Source of the DNA: a virus | IMG/VR virus record: IMGVR_UViG_3300027985_001911 | Span: 1-25,993 of that record | DNA: 25,993 bases | Reading direction: 5' to 3' (one strand) | Part shown: piece after piece, positions 4,154 through 17,809 of the stretch | Position numbering within the stretch: the first letter of the stretch is position 1 | Layout of the letters: each line of letters begins with the position of its first letter | Program-made: the position numbers and the translations under genes | Notes under the pieces: model-generated | Databases searched by the model: none | The model's input: only the letters and a program-made list of their open reading frames with translations | Told to the model about the DNA's origin: nothing

Positions 4154-4846
4154 AATCTTGCATTAAAAGGGTTACATATCAGACAAGGAAAAACAAAAGA
4201 GAATAGCGAACTTATAAGGCGTGTAGCAGAGAAACTAAAAATGTCTTCATCGTTTAATAATCCGCAAATAAGAGCTAAGGCTATAGCCAATGCAGAAATA
4301 ACAAGAAAAAAATACCCTGAGCGTAATCCGTATTTAATGTCGCCTAAAACATTATGCGAACAGATTATGTATAAGTTTTTAACCGATAATAATATTGAGT
4401 TTAAATTTAGATTCATCATTGAAGGTTATTTTGTTAATTTTTATTTGCCTATTCATAATATATGTATTGATATTGTAGGTAAAAACAGGTTACCTCTTTC
4501 TTACAAACGACATAATACCATACTTGAGCAGGATTATGGTATTGTGTATTGCATTACTGACTTTGTTAAAAAATCCAACTTTAGCGACTTGTATAATTAT
4601 ATCACCTCGCTTAATATTATTGGCAGTGTTCCATCCTTTGAAAGTAAAGAATCGGTGATTTGGGGTACAAGAAACTCTAAACCCTTTGGAAAAGAGAGTA
4701 ATCAGGTTACCGTTAAATGTGTTTATGTGGATTCCTTCTACAAGCTTTACATTTCCGCTCCCACCAATTAAATAGTTTAATTGTTTAATTTCTTCTATGT
4801 TTTCCCAACCTTTTGCAGTTAATATTTTAGTTCCGGGGGCAAAGCA
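3767..4846 (-). other. Intein inserted at the MuF CRC motif, split by stop codons
   Basis: Boundaries are defined by splice chemistry. The first residue is Cys (codon 4844-4846) after extein PPLGWN, and the last residues are His-Asn (3767-3772) before extein Cys (3764-3766). Joining the flanks recreates GWN-CRCKAIEV, a typical MuF motif. Block A is CFAPGTKILTAKGWENIEEI and block B is GFRVSCTPNHRFFTFKGW, with the conserved Thr and His of TxxH. A GD motif follows (NNIKRGDIII). Blocks F/G are near the C end. The insert is 1080 bases (360 codons, in frame with both exteins). Eight in-frame stops at 4163-4492 prevent one continuous chain, so splicing in cis is impossible. A split intein working in trans is the favoured reading; a decayed intein is the alternative. 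Confidence 0.85.
3857..4771 (+). CDS. Homing-endonuclease-like gene nested antisense inside the intein
   Basis: 304 residues (an alternative start MEKSLSP lies at 3881), lying completely within the intein but on the other strand. Residues 40-90 hold a helix-turn-helix (LSYRKLSKLWGINNRTIAKVI) followed by the basic segment EPRRGSEAIRTQWINTPERR, common in DNA-binding parts of homing endonucleases. Residues 161-250 look like a Vsr/DUF559-type nuclease fold: SPKTLCEQIMYKFLTDNNIE, IIEGYFVNFYLPIHNICIDIVG, then a strand-helix ending CITDFVKKSNFSDLYNYI. The usual VDF Asp is Asn194 here and the usual Glu/Asp-Gly segment is IDIVG, so activity may be reduced. Residues 251-304 are opposite intein blocks A/B. 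Free-standing nucleases of the EDxHD/Vsr type are known beside split inteins in 'fractured' genes. A weak promoter-like TAATTTTG at 3041 points this way. Confidence 0.7.
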   Translation: MTNNNIAVMEKSLSPKVISRIELIEGTNISDAIELRYFAQKLSYRKLSKLWGINNRTIAKVISYCGKEPRRGSEAIRTQWINTPERRKQAGENLANINHNLALKGLHIRQGKTKENSELIRRVAEKLKMSSSFNNPQIRAKAIANAEITRKKYPERNPYLMSPKTLCEQIMYKFLTDNNIEFKFRFIIEGYFVNFYLPIHNICIDIVGKNRLPLSYKRHNTILEQDYGIVYCITDFVKKSNFSDLYNYITSLNIIGSVPSFESKESVIWGTRNSKPFGKESNQVTVKCVYVDSFYKLYISAPTN

Positions 4847-5565: not shown

Positions 5566-6855
5566 TTATACGAAAAAATCGGGAGCGTACTGTAAGTTAT
5601 TACCGCTGTTTTGTTGGCTTTGCTTAGTACCTGTTACCTTAATTCCAAACTTTTCGTTAATCCAATTGTCGTCAACTTCTTTATAAGGAAGTACTTCTTT
5701 GGTTCTGCTCCAAAGGGTATTGAGGTCTTCAGCTTTGTCGAACTCAAACCAATAATCGCCTTTTGGCAAATACCCAATTTGTGTGAGTGCCGGAAATACA
5801 ATATCGTTAATAAGTATTTCCACCATGCGCTTATCGGCATTAACAATATCTTCAAGAACCTCTTGTGAGCTTTGTTCTTTGCCTTTGCTTCCAAACTTGC
5901 TGTCCTGCCCTATAATAGCACCCGATATAAGTAACGATATTTCGTTGTTACACAGGTTTATAAGGTTTTCGTACACTTCACCTTTGCTACTTGTACTTTC
6001 AGCCCATTCTATTTGTTCGGTGTCGTCAATAATAAACCAAGCTGCAGCACCCATATCTTTCATCATTCGCTCGGCACGGTTAAGTGCTTGCGGGTCGGCT
6101 GTGTTGGTTTTCATTACCCGGGGCGGTATGCCGCATATTTCGCACAGCTCACTCCAACAGCTTTGCGCAAAACGTTTGAATAGTACATGAGGTATAGCCT
6201 TATTAATTAGCCCAATTTTTCCACCTGCTTTAAATTCCAACAGCCAAGTGCCGTACTCGTTTACCTGTCGGTACTCAATACCTTTATCGTCGGTATAGTC
6301 TTTAACTATTATAGCCGGAGTAGGCAATACGTTTTGTCGGGGTATAAGGGTACAGGTGTATTTGTTGTCGATATAGTCTAATTCCAGTACAGTATTGCCA
6401 TCGGTAATTGTATCCCAACAGTGAGCCATAATATCGTTAAAGAAACCGCTGTTTTCCAGAGTTGCGGTAAGTTCAGTGTCGGCATCGGCACCTTTGCGTT
6501 TCACAACAAAGTCGGCACCGGTTGTTTTAAGTTTTCGGCGTTCTATTTGCGAAGTAAGCCTGGCATCGTCTTTAATATCGGCATATAGGTTATGCAGGGG
6601 GTATGTTTTTTGGTTGTCGACATTGCCATGCATAGCCAGTGCGCTTTTCCAAATAGCAATATCGGCTTTGAGGCGGCTGGTACTTTTGGGTACAATTGTG
6701 CGAGCTACCTGCAGGGCGTTTTTCTTGGTTATTTTGCCGTAAGATAGAGCGGCTTGCGGAGACGCAATATCTTGCGGAGACGCAATATCTTGCGTCTGTA
6801 CTGATGTCTGGTGAGACGCAATATCTTGCGTCTTTACATATCTATTATTGCTCAT
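5566..6855 (-). CDS. Portal protein, Mu gp29-like (DUF935 type)
   Basis: The 429-residue product resembles the Mu gp29 portal family. Visible segments are the early clip ILHxx-like region YPLHNLYADIKDDARLTSQIERRKLKTTGADFVV, the helical DIMAHCWDTITDGNTVLELDY, the stem-like RFAQSCWSELCEICGIPPRVMKTNT, AAAWFIIDDTEQIEWAES, and NEISLLISGAIIGQDSKFGSKGKEQSSQEVLEDIVNADKRMVEILINDIVFPAL. Portals form the dodecameric DNA channel at the head vertex and dock the terminase. The first 35 residues are unusual: they include four QDIAS repeats encoded by palindromic DNA repeats (see 6760-6833), and no alternative Met is available before the family region begins. It lies between gp36-like and MuF-like genes. Confidence 0.9.
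   Translation of the reverse strand: MSNNRYVKTQDIASHQTSVQTQDIASPQDIASPQAALSYGKITKKNALQVARTIVPKSTSRLKADIAIWKSALAMHGNVDNQKTYPLHNLYADIKDDARLTSQIERRKLKTTGADFVVKRKGADADTELTATLENSGFFNDIMAHCWDTITDGNTVLELDYIDNKYTCTLIPRQNVLPTPAIIVKDYTDDKGIEYRQVNEYGTWLLEFKAGGKIGLINKAIPHVLFKRFAQSCWSELCEICGIPPRVMKTNTADPQALNRAERMMKDMGAAAWFIIDDTEQIEWAESTSSKGEVYENLINLCNNEISLLISGAIIGQDSKFGSKGKEQSSQEVLEDIVNADKRMVEILINDIVFPALTQIGYLPKGDYWFEFDKAEDLNTLWSRTKEVLPYKEVDDNWINEKFGIKVTGTKQSQQNSGNNLQYAPDFFV
6760..6833. repeat. Three direct copies of the palindromic repeat inside the portal reading frame
   Basis: AGACGCAATATCTTGCG at 6760-6776 is a copy lacking the last three bases, and full 20-base copies lie at 6778-6797 and 6814-6833, all in one orientation. 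On the minus strand they encode the peptide unit TQDIAS/PQDIAS in the portal N terminus. The same element lies between genes at 2404-2451 and 14662-14709, so here a normally intergenic repeat has become coding. Confidence 0.85.
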
Positions 6856-13081: not shown

Positions 13082-14194
13082 ATGGCTTTACCAAGTGTAA
13101 AAATAGAATTACAAAACGGCGGGTTGGGCAAAGTATCTGACCTTGGCAACGGAACAGGAGCTTTGTTGGTGTTAATGCCAACAAGTCCTACCGGGCACGC
13201 CTTTGGCGATGTAAAGGAGTACGCCTCGTACAGTTCGCTCCCTGTTGAATTACAGGCAGTAGATGGGGTAAAACAATATTTCAACATAGCACAGGGGCGC
13301 ACTGTGGCAATAATGCCCATAGCCGATACGGTAAGTATAACCGATGCTGTAAACAGCGTACACGCTACTCCGTACATGAAACAACTGGTAGAAAGTAACC
13401 ACGATATACGCTTTGCCGGAGTGGTAGGCAATGGCCTTGCTGCAGCCGATATACTTACTGCCTGTACCAATGCACAAGTGTTGGCACAAAATGCCGCTGC
13501 GGTATTTGCCCCGGTAATAGTATTGCTCCCTTATGCTTACGCCAATGCCGACACAGTACCCGACCTTACCGAGGCTACATATAACCGGGTAGGGGTATGC
13601 GTAAGCCAAACAGGCAGCGAGATAGGGTTACTTATAGGGCGATTAGCTTCAATACCTGTACAGCGCAATATAGGCAGGGTAAAAGATGGTGCCATGCCTG
13701 TAACCAATGCTGCGCTCGACAATAGTACCGTACCGGCTACTATGGTTGAGAGTGGCACGGCTCAAATAAGCAGCCTGCACAATAAGGGGTATATAGCTTT
13801 GCGAACACATATAGGCAAAGCAGGATACTACTTTACCGACGACCCGCTGGCAACCGACCCCACCGACGATTACAGCACCATAGCCAACCGCAGAGTAATA
13901 GACAAAGCTATGGTTATAGCTTACAAAACATACCTAAACGAATTGCTCGATGAAGTAGAAATGACTAACGGAAAACTAAGTGCCGGAGTAATTAAATACT
14001 TACAGGCAATAGTAGAAACAGCTATAGGCAATATAATGCTTGTAGGTGGCGAAGTGTCAGACGTAGAAGCTTATATTGACGAAAACCAAAATGTGTTGTC
14101 AACAGGGATTATTAGGGTACAACTGAAAATAGTTCCGGTAGGATATGCCAAAACCATAGTAGTGGAGCTGGGCTTTGATAACCCGACAGCATAA
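13082..14194 (+). CDS. Tail sheath protein (DUF2586-like)
   Basis: The 370-residue product begins MALPSVKIELQNGGLGKVSDLGNGTGALLVLMPT, followed by SYSSLPVELQAVDGVKQYFNIA and a Rossmann-like insertion (FAGVVGNGLAAADILTACTNAQVLAQNAAAVFAPVIVLLPY). The C-terminal half has YNRVGVCVSQTGSEIGLLIGRLASIPVQRNIGRVKDGAM, HNKGYIALRTHIGKAGYYFTDD, YSTIANRRVIDKAMVIAYKTYLNELLDEV and a final strand TGIIRVQLKIVPVGYAKTIVVELGF. This is the architecture of contractile-tail sheaths of the DUF2586 type found in Bacteroidota. The tail tube gene follows 41 bases after the stop. Together they define a myovirus-type tail. Confidence 0.9.
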   Translation: MALPSVKIELQNGGLGKVSDLGNGTGALLVLMPTSPTGHAFGDVKEYASYSSLPVELQAVDGVKQYFNIAQGRTVAIMPIADTVSITDAVNSVHATPYMKQLVESNHDIRFAGVVGNGLAAADILTACTNAQVLAQNAAAVFAPVIVLLPYAYANADTVPDLTEATYNRVGVCVSQTGSEIGLLIGRLASIPVQRNIGRVKDGAMPVTNAALDNSTVPATMVESGTAQISSLHNKGYIALRTHIGKAGYYFTDDPLATDPTDDYSTIANRRVIDKAMVIAYKTYLNELLDEVEMTNGKLSAGVIKYLQAIVETAIGNIMLVGGEVSDVEAYIDENQNVLSTGIIRVQLKIVPVGYAKTIVVELGFDNPTA

Positions 14195-14235: not shown

Positions 14236-14658
14236 ATGGGTATAGCAGTAAATAATAAACAGTACGAGTGGGGACACATTAACGTAATAGTAATGGGTAA
14301 ACCCATATTTGGCTTACGCGGAATAGAGTACAAAAAAACACAGGAGAAAGAGCCTCTGTACGGTAGAGGCAATAAGCCGTATGCCATTCAGAGCGGCAAC
14401 GTAAAGGTAGAGGGTACACTCACACTATTGCAGGGTGAACTTGAAGCTATGTGCGATGCCGCCGGAGCTAGAAACGATGTAACCCAACTGCCACTTATTG
14501 ATATAGTGGTAACATACACCCCGCTCGATGGTGCACCCACTATCGACACCGTAAAGGGGGTAGCATTTACCGAAACACCAAAAGGGATGAAGCAGGGCGA
14601 TAAAAATTCCGAACACGCCTTACCGTTCATTGCCTTAGATGTAGAGTACGGTATATAG
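14236..14658 (+). CDS. Tail tube protein
   Basis: The 140-residue product lies directly after the sheath. It is beta-rich (YEWGHINVIVMGKPIFGLRGIEYKKTQEKEPLYGRGNKPYAIQSGNVKVEGTLTLLQGELEAMCDAAG … VDIVVTYTPL). The middle GRGxxPYxIQxGN segment with 'VKVEGTLTL' is typical of Mu gpM/P2 FII-like tube proteins. It forms the inner tube of the contractile tail. A degenerate and a full copy of the palindromic repeat follow the stop at 14662-14709. Confidence 0.82.
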   Translation: MGIAVNNKQYEWGHINVIVMGKPIFGLRGIEYKKTQEKEPLYGRGNKPYAIQSGNVKVEGTLTLLQGELEAMCDAAGARNDVTQLPLIDIVVTYTPLDGAPTIDTVKGVAFTETPKGMKQGDKNSEHALPFIALDVEYGI

Positions 14659-14661
14659 TAG

Positions 14662-14709
14662 AGACGCAAGATATTACGAATTAACGTAGAGACGCAAGAT
14701 ATTGCGTCT
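14662..14709. repeat. Degenerate plus full copy of the palindromic repeat
   Basis: AGACGCAAGATATTA at 14662-14676 is a damaged copy; the full AGACGCAAGATATTGCGTCT follows at 14690-14709. They lie in the gap between the tail tube and the tail chaperone genes, in a place where a partial terminator could balance expression of the abundant tube against later genes. That role is inference. Confidence 0.8.
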
Positions 14710-14730
14710 CTACAGTAAAAAAAATCAATC

Positions 14731-15203
14731 ATGGCAGAAAAAAAATTAATTGGGCAGGTAAGCCCCGAGCAAATAAACGAGTGGAAAGCGAAACACGGCA
14801 AAGTATACGAAATAGAAGCCGACGGGCACATAGGATATGTAAAACAACCCGGGCGAATGGAAATGAGCCATGCAGGAACTATTGGCGCAGGCGATAATAT
14901 ATTATTTAACGAAGTGTTGTTAAACGATTGTTGGCTGGGTGGTAGCGATGCATTGAAAAAAGAAGACCGCCTGTTTTTTGGTGTGAGCAATATTTTAGAT
15001 AAAATAATTGATGTAGCCAAGGCAACAGTAAAAAACTTATAGAGGCTGATCCGGGGCCTGAAAAAAACTGGATACGGCAAGCTGATATTATTATGAGGTA
15101 TCACTTAAAATGTGATACCTCACAAATGAGCGATGCCGAATGGGCACAAACACATAACGACCTGCAATGGCTACTAAAGGAGATGAATAAGGGTAATGAT
15201 TAA
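14731..15203 (+). CDS. Tail assembly chaperone, short form and -1 frameshift long form
   Basis: The zero-frame product ends at 15042 (103 residues: MAEKKLIGQVSPEQINEWKA … VAKATVKNL). At its end, codons AAA AAC preceded by A make the slippery heptamer A_AAA_AAC (15030-15036). A -1 shift there opens a frame to TAA 15201-15203, adding 55 residues that read like a genuine protein: LIEADPGPEKNWIRQADIIM, then KCDTSQMSDAEWAQTHNDLQ and WLLKEMNKGND. The fused product is 157 residues. Position between tube and tape measure, plus the two-length output, match gpG/gpGT-type chaperones that load the tape measure protein. The extension has no good start of its own. The chaperone call is strong on architecture and gene order, not on named-family similarity. 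Confidence 0.85.
15030..15036 (+). promoter_or_regulatory. A_AAA_AAC slippery site for -1 frameshifting
   Basis: The heptamer is in the correct phase for tandem slippage: zero-frame codons AAA (15031-33) and AAC (15034-36), followed by TTA and stop TAG (15040-42). The -1 frame is open for 56 codons from 15036. The stop codon two codons downstream would also slow the ribosome at the site. Confidence 0.85.
15095..15121 (+). other. Perfect 10-bp stem-loop in the frameshift extension
   Basis: GAGGTATCAC (15095-15104) pairs with GTGATACCTC (15112-15121) around the loop TTAAAAT. It starts 58 bases after the slippery heptamer, too far for the usual 5-9 base stimulator spacing. It may instead contribute through a larger fold or affect mRNA stability. 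It lies inside the coding extension. Confidence 0.5.
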
Positions 15204-15334
15204 ATAATAACAATGACAACCTAAAATTCGGTGTCAATATCATTGTCCTGATTTGATTCTTTGCAAGGTATCAGATTGCAAATGTTCCAAGTGTTGATAA
15301 TATTACAAAAACAGTGAAATGCATAGTTAATTCA

Positions 15335-15523
15335 TTAACAGCATTCTAAAACTAATTCAATAGCAATTGCTATTATGCTTGTTCCAATAGCTGAACCTAA
15401 TAAAGATATAAATACAATTGAAATACCTTCAAGTAAAGTGTAACTATTCATTGAGAAACTAAAAATTAAAGCCCCAATTAGAACAGTAATAAAAAGCACT
15501 GTATAGAAGTAAAATTTTTTCAT
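15335..15523 (-). CDS. Reverse-strand small membrane protein (moron-like)
   Basis: The 62-residue product starts MKKFYFYTVLFITVLIGALI and has two hydrophobic segments (about 5-25 and 36-58) joined by FSMNSYTLLEG, ending ELVLECC. It lies alone on the minus strand between the tail chaperone and the tape measure genes, interrupting a pair normally adjacent. On its own strand, a near-consensus -7 box (TATATTTA) lies just upstream of the start, so it may have its own promoter. Independent reverse-strand cargo in the tail operon is typical of 'moron' genes, which often alter the lysogen's surface or block superinfection. The function is unknown and the coding call moderate. Confidence 0.6.
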   Translation of the reverse strand: MKKFYFYTVLFITVLIGALIFSFSMNSYTLLEGISIVFISLLGSAIGTSIIAIAIELVLECC

Positions 15524-15541
15524 ACTGTAAATATAAAAAAA

Positions 15542-17809
15542 ATGAGCGGAACTACCTATACATACACATTTAATCTGAAAGACAATATTAGTGGAGTATT
15601 TAATAAAGTTAGCTCAACTATAAATGTCGGAACAGATAGTATACAAAAAAAAGTAAATGGTTTAGCGAATAGTTTTACTAAGCTTCAAGCCTGTATGGTA
15701 GGTTTTAATCAGGCTAGCGAAATGTTTGATAAAATGTCGTTAGCCATGGATAACTTAGTAGCCCCGGCTGCTGTATTTGAGCAAAACATGGCCGATTTAT
15801 CGGCTATAACAGGCATTGCAGGAAAAGAGCTTAGCATACTTGAAAAAACAGCCCGAAAAACAGGAAAAGAGAGTGGGCTTGGTGCATCGCAGGCTGCGGA
15901 GGCTTATAAAATACTGGCTTCGCAAATCGATGTATCGAAAATAGGATTAAATGGTTTACAAGACCTTCAGAAAAAGAGTATTACCCTTAGCCAGGCATCG
16001 GGTTTGGAAATGGGCGAAGCAGCTCAAGCTTTGTCCGGAACCATTAACCAATTTGGGTTACAAGCAAGCGAAGCAGGCAGGGTAATGAATGTATTGGCTG
16101 CAGGTTCAAAGTATGGAGCTGCCGAAATACCTGAACTGGCACAATCGTTTAAAGTAGTAGGTGCAGCCGCAGCATCGGCAGGTTTAAGTGTTGAAGATAC
16201 AGCAGGGGCTATTGAAGTATTGAGTAAAAACAACATGAAAGGAGCCGAGGCAGGTACTGCCTTGCGTAATATAATGTTGAAAATGCAAACAGGGCTTGGT
16301 GTTGATTTTAAAAACACCAATATAAGCAATGCCCTTAAAACACTTCAACCACAACTTAACGATGTAACATTCCTTACCAAAACCTTTGGTATGGAAAACG
16401 TAGTAGCGGCACAGTATTTAATTAAAAATGCCGATGCAGTACAGGAAATGACCAACAGGGTTACAGGTACAAGTGTGGCTACTGAACAGGCTGCAATACG
16501 TACAGATACATTCAGCCACAAGATGCAAGTATGGGCTGCTCGATGGGATGATGCGAAAATATCAATGTTCAAATATACTCAACATTTAGCTCCTACAATA
16601 AAAGGTATGTCAGAAGGGGCAAAAGGTATTGCTAGTTTAGGGGCAGGTATTTGTACTACAAAGACAGCCATTGATTGGCTACGCACATCTGAAATTCATA
16701 AAAACATAGCAACCAAAGCAGGTGCAATATGGACAGGTATAAGCACTGTGGCTACTAAAGTGTACAGCCTAACGGTAGGTAAAGCAGTAAAGCAATTGCG
16801 TAAACTTAGCTCAGGTATGGGTACACATACCGGAGCTGTAGGAATATTCTCAATAGGAATGGGTATAGCTGCCGGAGCAACTCGCTTATTTAGCAACTCG
16901 CTTAAAGTACTTGGCAGGGCTATATACAGTATACCTATTATAGGTTGGATAGCCGGGGGTATATCGCTTATTGTGGCAGGATTTACAATACTTTGGAACA
17001 AAAGCGAAAAGTTCAGAGGTATTGTTTATGGCATAGGAGCGGTATTTAAAACCCTGTTCGGGGTACTCAAAACAGCAGTTACGTTTATGTGGAATGGTAT
17101 TGTTAAACCAATATTTACCATGTACTATAAATTTTATAAAGCTATTGTAACCGGTATATGGAACGGGTTGAAATGGATTTGGGACAAGGCTCTTAAACCA
17201 CTTGGTTCGGCTCTGATAAAGTTTGCAGGTTGGATATATACAAAAGTAATAACACCTATAAAGGAAGGCTTTGCCAATATGGGGGGCTTCCTGGGCAAAG
17301 TATTTGAGAAAATTACAGGGGGGCTTGGACGTATATTTCAACCGTTTGTAAAGTTGTGGAATAAAGTATTTAAAAACAACAAAATAGTACTCGACATAAA
17401 AGAGAACCTTAGCAAAACTAAAGGGGCAATAGCTGACGCCGGCGGTAAAATACGCAACGACTTTAATGAAGGTTTTGCCAAAGGGGTTGACAATTTCAGA
17501 AACTCAAAACAAAAGAAACCGGGTGGTAAAATTATTGATATTGGCTCCGAATATGGTTCGGGTGGCATTAATGCATTGGCAGGAATGGCCAATGCCGAAA
17601 GTATGGATTTAGGTAATGCCCCTGTTAGCTCAGGCAGTGGCTCTTCTACTCCACAGACCGGCGTAACTAAAAACGTAACCATATCAATTAATAAAGTGGG
17701 AGTTGATACAGTTACCCTGCACAGCCAAACAGTTACCGAAGGCAGCGGACAAATAAGCGATATAATTATGAGCGACTTAGTAAGGGTAGTTAACAGTTTA
17801 AGTGCATAA
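15542..17809 (+). CDS. Tail tape measure protein (TP901 type)
   Basis: The 755-residue product has the TP901 core in about residues 70-270: PAAVFEQNMADLSAITGIAGK, ARKTGKESGLGASQAAEAYKILASQ, SQASGLEMGEAAQALSGTINQFG, YGAAEIPELAQSFKVVGAAAASAGLSVEDTAGAIEVLSKNNMKGAEAGTALRNIMLKM. A hydrophobic stretch at about 460-485 (YSIPIIGWIAGGISLIVAGFTILW) and amphipathic Trp-rich segments (FMWNGIVKPIFTMYYKFYKAI … WDKALKPLG) follow, usual for membrane-penetrating parts. The C-terminal region is Gly/Ser-rich, ending with a beta-like tail. It sets tail length. The hub and spike genes follow directly (2 bases to the next start). By length the tail would be relatively short, of the order of 100 nm (inference). Confidence 0.93.
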   Translation: MSGTTYTYTFNLKDNISGVFNKVSSTINVGTDSIQKKVNGLANSFTKLQACMVGFNQASEMFDKMSLAMDNLVAPAAVFEQNMADLSAITGIAGKELSILEKTARKTGKESGLGASQAAEAYKILASQIDVSKIGLNGLQDLQKKSITLSQASGLEMGEAAQALSGTINQFGLQASEAGRVMNVLAAGSKYGAAEIPELAQSFKVVGAAAASAGLSVEDTAGAIEVLSKNNMKGAEAGTALRNIMLKMQTGLGVDFKNTNISNALKTLQPQLNDVTFLTKTFGMENVVAAQYLIKNADAVQEMTNRVTGTSVATEQAAIRTDTFSHKMQVWAARWDDAKISMFKYTQHLAPTIKGMSEGAKGIASLGAGICTTKTAIDWLRTSEIHKNIATKAGAIWTGISTVATKVYSLTVGKAVKQLRKLSSGMGTHTGAVGIFSIGMGIAAGATRLFSNSLKVLGRAIYSIPIIGWIAGGISLIVAGFTILWNKSEKFRGIVYGIGAVFKTLFGVLKTAVTFMWNGIVKPIFTMYYKFYKAIVTGIWNGLKWIWDKALKPLGSALIKFAGWIYTKVITPIKEGFANMGGFLGKVFEKITGGLGRIFQPFVKLWNKVFKNNKIVLDIKENLSKTKGAIADAGGKIRNDFNEGFAKGVDNFRNSKQKKPGGKIIDIGSEYGSGGINALAGMANAESMDLGNAPVSSGSGSSTPQTGVTKNVTISINKVGVDTVTLHSQTVTEGSGQISDIIMSDLVRVVNSLSA

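Follow-up and report, generated by a model that had tools for sequence, protein, structure and literature searches.

The -1 frameshift in the dnaX gene of E. coli makes use of an upstream Shine-Dalgarno (SD) sequence and a downstream hairpin. Its slippery site is A_AAA_AAG (PMC5009743). In phage lambda, a gene lying between the tube and tape measure genes gives the short gpG and, through a -1 frameshift late in the gpG reading frame, the longer gpGT (PMC5009743). Two proteins of known structure, 3FGX and 2OB9, have both been called tail assembly chaperones (PMC9603447). Studies of slippery sequences in E. coli have reported A_AAA_AAC as a low-efficiency motif and A_AAG as the most shift-prone tetramer when a stimulator is given (PMC4066793). 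The insertion sequence IS1222 uses G_CGA_AAG (PMC5009743), and motifs in phage chaperones that do not follow XXXYYYZ have previously been noted by PRFect (PMC10885494). Ribosomes of Bacteroidia/Bacteroidota sequester their anti-SD (PMC9976891). The Bacteroidia prfB gene keeps an SD-like +1 site all the same, for which its authors offer only a hypothesis (PMC8710568).

The DNA analyzed here (the window) spans an IMG/VR virus record of 25,993 bases in full. In this record a tail assembly chaperone gene very probably yields two proteins via a -1 frameshift on A_AAA_AAC, a reading to which we assign a probability of about 0.93. The proposal of a programmed -1 frameshift in a tail chaperone came from a first-pass annotation of the same DNA, and it is supported by the position of the gene, the predicted fold of its product, the in-phase heptamer, a conserved and selected extension and a signal of RNA structure downstream of the site. 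The likeness to lambda gpG/gpGT lies in a short and a long chaperone from one gene, in the place of that gene between tube and tape measure and in a -1 shift late in the short form; the slippery sequence differs, and the extension here has 55 aa and two predicted helices. The coordinates of the features are collected in Table 1. The gene order is sheath-tube-chaperone-tape measure. The virus is a myophage with a DUF2586 sheath. Among isolates, the nearest relative found was Winogradskyella phage Peternella_1, a Mu-like myovirus of the Winoviridae. Frameshifting in tail chaperones is a known trick, and the present case is unannotated in Peternella_1, the one annotated relative inspected, whose record gives the short form as a hypothetical protein and the extension without any feature; the text of the Peternella_1 paper mentions neither a frameshift nor a chaperone. 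Scans of positions 14600-15700 gave no sigma-70-type promoter above shuffles and no terminator.

Table 1. Features of the predicted chaperone locus and its neighbours in the window
Feature	Position	Strand	Basis or remark
DUF2586 sheath, upstream	13082-14194		
Tail tube-like protein, upstream neighbour	14236..14658	+	phrog_9206 / phrog_4579
Predicted tail assembly chaperone, short form, 103 aa	14731..15042	+	phrog_19076, AlphaFold model, PDB matches
Weak Shine-Dalgarno-like AAGG	15019..15022	+	near the place of AAGGAGGC in many relatives
Slippery heptamer A_AAA_AAC	15030..15036	+	zero-frame phase
-1-frame extension, 55 codons + TAA	15036..15203	+	domain in -1 frame in 68/69 loci, dN<dS in relatives, two-helix model
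Zero-frame stop TAG	15040..15042	+	one codon 3' of heptamer
Candidate 3' stimulatory hairpin, 5 bp, weak	15043..15059	+	6-nt spacer from heptamer
Strong 11-bp hairpin inside extension	15094..15122	+	104-nt region z -5.65
Tape measure protein, downstream neighbour	15542..17809	+	PhageMin_Tail, tape_meas_TP901

The short form ends in the codons GCA ACA GTA AAA AAC TTA TAG, with the zero-frame GTA starting at 15028. The heptamer thus stands before the zero-frame stop in the phase that the first-pass annotation had read, with TTA as the single intervening codon. The -1 frame has no stop between 15012 and the TAA at 15201-15203, and the 55 open residues claimed for it are borne out by the 55 codons and TAA counted from the codon at 15036. 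If both tRNAs slip, the predicted long form has 102 + 55 = 157 aa, and the +1 frame at the shift site closes after 2 codons. Taken in the window alone, the heptamer and the open -1 frame are weak evidence and go little beyond chance, because AAAAAAC occurs near expectation (19 copies in the window vs 13.8 expected), because neighbouring genes also hold in-frame A_AAA_AAN heptamers and because an opening of 53 codons has a chance probability of about 0.025 from base composition. The strength is supplied by the relatives.

Profile searches matched the short form to phrog_19076 (E 8.7e-30, residues 8-103 of 103), a family of unknown function in PHROGs. Neither the short form nor the extension matched a family in Pfam or NCBIfam, and the extension gave only chance-level matches to PHROGs. 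The AlphaFold model of the short form has a pLDDT of 90. With this model, Foldseek placed 3FGX first (E 2.7e-3) and 2OB9, which is HK97 gp13, second among PDB chains, and VIA-align gave Z 7.7 for 3FGX and Z 4.6 for 2OB9, values above the unrelated rows and middling by the tool's own note. These matches suggest a tail assembly chaperone fold for the short form, as predicted by the model. The likeness to HK97 gp13 and Rbstp2171 (3FGX) is one of predicted fold; identity is 11-22%, and the phage described here is contractile-tailed. The extension was modelled as two helices (pLDDT 87), with no match in BFVD under E 0.001. The family phrog_19076 would thereby acquire a probable function and a C-terminal product that it had lacked.

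Phage records, IMG/VR and genomes from GTDB were searched and yielded 69 non-redundant loci, window included, from phages and prophages mostly of Bacteroidota. A -1 ORF follows the zero-frame stop across the 69 loci, most often of 50-83 codons, and the extension motif in relatives resembles LRYYMHI.DPDSLSDEEWA...ELEWIRKKEA. A profile of the extension trained on 28 loci placed the domain immediately behind the stop, in the -1 frame, in all 28 of these and in 40 of 41 held-out non-redundant loci, L072 being the sole held-out exception in this search; 5 of the 40 held-out matches score below 10 bits, and there position counts as much as sequence. Among 26 close pairs, dS could be estimated in 24, and dN was smaller than dS for the extension in every one of them (dN/dS about 0.03-0.50). 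Judged by these substitution rates, the extension is under purifying selection in relatives. The conserved -1 domain and the low dN/dS mean therefore that the extension is real coding sequence and that its separation from the short form goes far back.

The relatives also bear on two other explanations of the split, both of which were rejected on their evidence. One longer gene could have been broken by a sequencing error or an inactivating mutation, as a homopolymer at the junction might suggest, together with locus L079, which resembles a homopolymer indel at the end of the extension. The same split recurs in all 69 loci, which come from contigs and genomes independent of each other; this makes either cause vanishingly improbable, and no zero-frame fusion of the two ORFs was found among the non-redundant relatives, all of which are split in a -1 relation. 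In L079 itself (positions 4290-4480, a Tannerellaceae MAG contig) the -1 extension continues in frame into the tape measure via an A7 run; this read-through is probably a homopolymer indel and possibly a real fusion. The extension could also be a separate small gene with its own start, or be reached by reinitiation after the TAG stop. It holds an in-frame ATG at 15093, so that the first-pass claim of an extension with no start of its own stands as far as its beginning is concerned and does not hold for its interior. As a start, this ATG would yield a piece of just 36 aa with part of helix 1 missing, and for this reason 'no own start' is taken here to mean none near the beginning of the extension. 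The -1 frame has no ATG, GTG or TTG from 15036 to 15093, and conservation extends back to the shift site (in many of the held-out relatives the profile match begins some 10 nt upstream of the stop), which leaves a separate gene very improbable.

The shift sites of the relatives are varied. The first-pass annotation had named conservation of the heptamer in relatives as a check, and the exact heptamer is not conserved: A_AAA_AAC stands at this position in 8 of the 69 loci. The full heptamer is A_AAA_AAG in 21 loci and A_AAA_AAA in 3, giving A_AAA_AAN in 32/69; other motifs at the same position are G_GAA_AAG (13), N_GTA_AAG/C (6), G_GGG_GAG (3) and G_ACA_AAG (1). Other loci have the site nearby, and distant members carry T_TTT_TTN or A_AAT_TTT. 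Twenty of the 69 loci lack an XXXYYYZ heptamer there and have only an A_AAG/A_AAC core in common; A_AAG_GGC, T_TTG_GGG and T_TTA_AAT, listed as 'canonical' by a script, are by-products of its loose heptamer definition. In four loci (L014, L086, L029 and L030) a stop at -16 blocks the -1 frame and confines the shift to the last four codons, where the sole core that allows re-pairing is A_AAG. This resembles IS1222 and other A_AAG tetramer sites, in that most non-canonical relatives share A_AAG alone (PMC5009743, PMC4066793); those sites are in transposase genes and synthetic constructs, and the present ones are in tail chaperones. From the full heptamer down to the A_AAG core, the sites of the relatives make up a graded natural series. 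The same variety weighs on transcriptional slippage, by which RNA polymerase would add or skip a base on the A6 run at 15030-15035 and the long form would come from an altered mRNA. Such a run is present in the window, and A6 or longer stands at the site in many relatives. However, 20 loci have the same frame layout on A3-A4 only (G_GAA_AAG, N_GTA_AAG, G_ACA_AAG, G_GTA_AAC), others use G_GGG_GAG, and a structure signal is found 3' of the site; slippage by the polymerase is therefore distinctly unlikely.

We infer the following scheme for the preferred reading, a shift by the ribosome, from the slippage and its rate to the use of a stimulator and the binding roles. The majority of ribosomes would stop at the TAG and release the 103-aa short form, and a minority would slip back one base on A_AAA_AAC and produce the 157-aa long form, whose C-terminal domain has two predicted helices. 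On the model of lambda gpG/gpGT, the N-terminal part common to both forms would cover the tape measure protein, and the extension would bring in tube subunits.

The RNA 3' of the site shows a family-wide structure signal, with z falling to between -1.0 and -1.5 where a 60-nt window begins 0 to +30 nt after the stop and lying near -0.2 further upstream (dip tested by 12 clusters, p 0.016). Small lineages have stems of their own, several beginning 5-8 nt after the heptamer, in groups of few sequences and little covariation. RNAalifold gave no consensus structure for 15 well-aligned members of the largest group, and for this reason a single shared 3' stem was dropped in favour of lineage-specific stems. 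In the window, the weak hairpin after the stop is a candidate stimulator; the strong hairpin inside the extension begins 57 nt past the heptamer, which is far for a classic stimulator.

Upstream of the site, many relatives carry an SD-like element. Across the family, AAGGAG at -24..-19 pairs with the anti-SD above the synonymous-codon expectation (z about -8.7 in windows clear of the slip codons, further upstream within about 2.5 of zero), and GAG is found at codon -7 in 29 of 35 cases vs 13.6 expected. Tested by 12 clusters, one of which holds 33 loci, the SD-like signal has p 0.009; the GAG test by cluster was not significant (5 clusters, p 0.125), nor was the SD-like element in the window itself (p 0.30). 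Many relatives resemble dnaX, with AAGGAG 5', A_AAA_AAG and structured RNA 3', whereas the heptamer of the window is A_AAA_AAC, its SD-like element is weak and the anti-SD of Bacteroidota is sequestered (PMC9976891). Bacteroidia prfB likewise has an internal SD-like element beside its recoding site although the anti-SD is occluded (PMC8710568); it differs in shifting +1 at a stop codon in a host gene, whereas the shift here is -1 in a phage gene. The SD reading of the internal AAGGAG is a hypothesis, as is the explanation of prfB. It is possible, though we lean slightly against it, that pairing between the internal AAGGAG and the 16S anti-SD stimulates the -1 shift in these Bacteroidota phages despite the sequestered tail, with many members having only the A_AAG core. 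If this were true, the chaperone ratio would hinge on pausing, or else on ribosomes whose anti-SD has been freed, e.g., those lacking bS21. If the signal is real, these phages offer a second test bed besides prfB for SD-stimulated recoding with an occluded anti-SD.

Just before the chaperone gene sits one cluster of an interspersed inverted repeat, GTAGAGACGCAA (14658-14718 in the window, with others at 2400-2455 and 6790-6837). When up to 1 mismatch is allowed, the window holds 8 matches to the repeat vs 0.09 expected. No exact match to it was found in related loci, and a comparison of the repeat close to the chaperone start with plasmids found none.

The extension was claimed to fill a gap otherwise left blank. 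It does fill 161 nt, but the gap before the tape-measure gene is 499 nt, and the rest contains a minus-strand ORF. This small hydrophobic ORF, at 15335-15523 (-), is predicted to encode a small membrane protein. A like antisense ORF was seen in L004, L006, L008, L011, L012, L014, L015, L020 and L023, and also in L028, L031, L072, L073, L075, L081, L084 and L094. It was present in 18 of the 21 loci examined with gaps of >100 nt, and in most of these it is longer and more hydrophobic than shuffles; many other loci have almost no gap between extension and tape measure. The antisense proteins of L073 and L075 share 42% identity, and those of L072 and L094 are similar to them. The ORF may be a moron, e.g., a superinfection-exclusion gene. 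In four loci a CATG combines the start of the tape measure gene with that of a possible antisense ORF (L004:3447-3450, L006:5737-5740, L014:4664-4667 and L084:4711-4714), a head-to-head overlap that may be due to chance.
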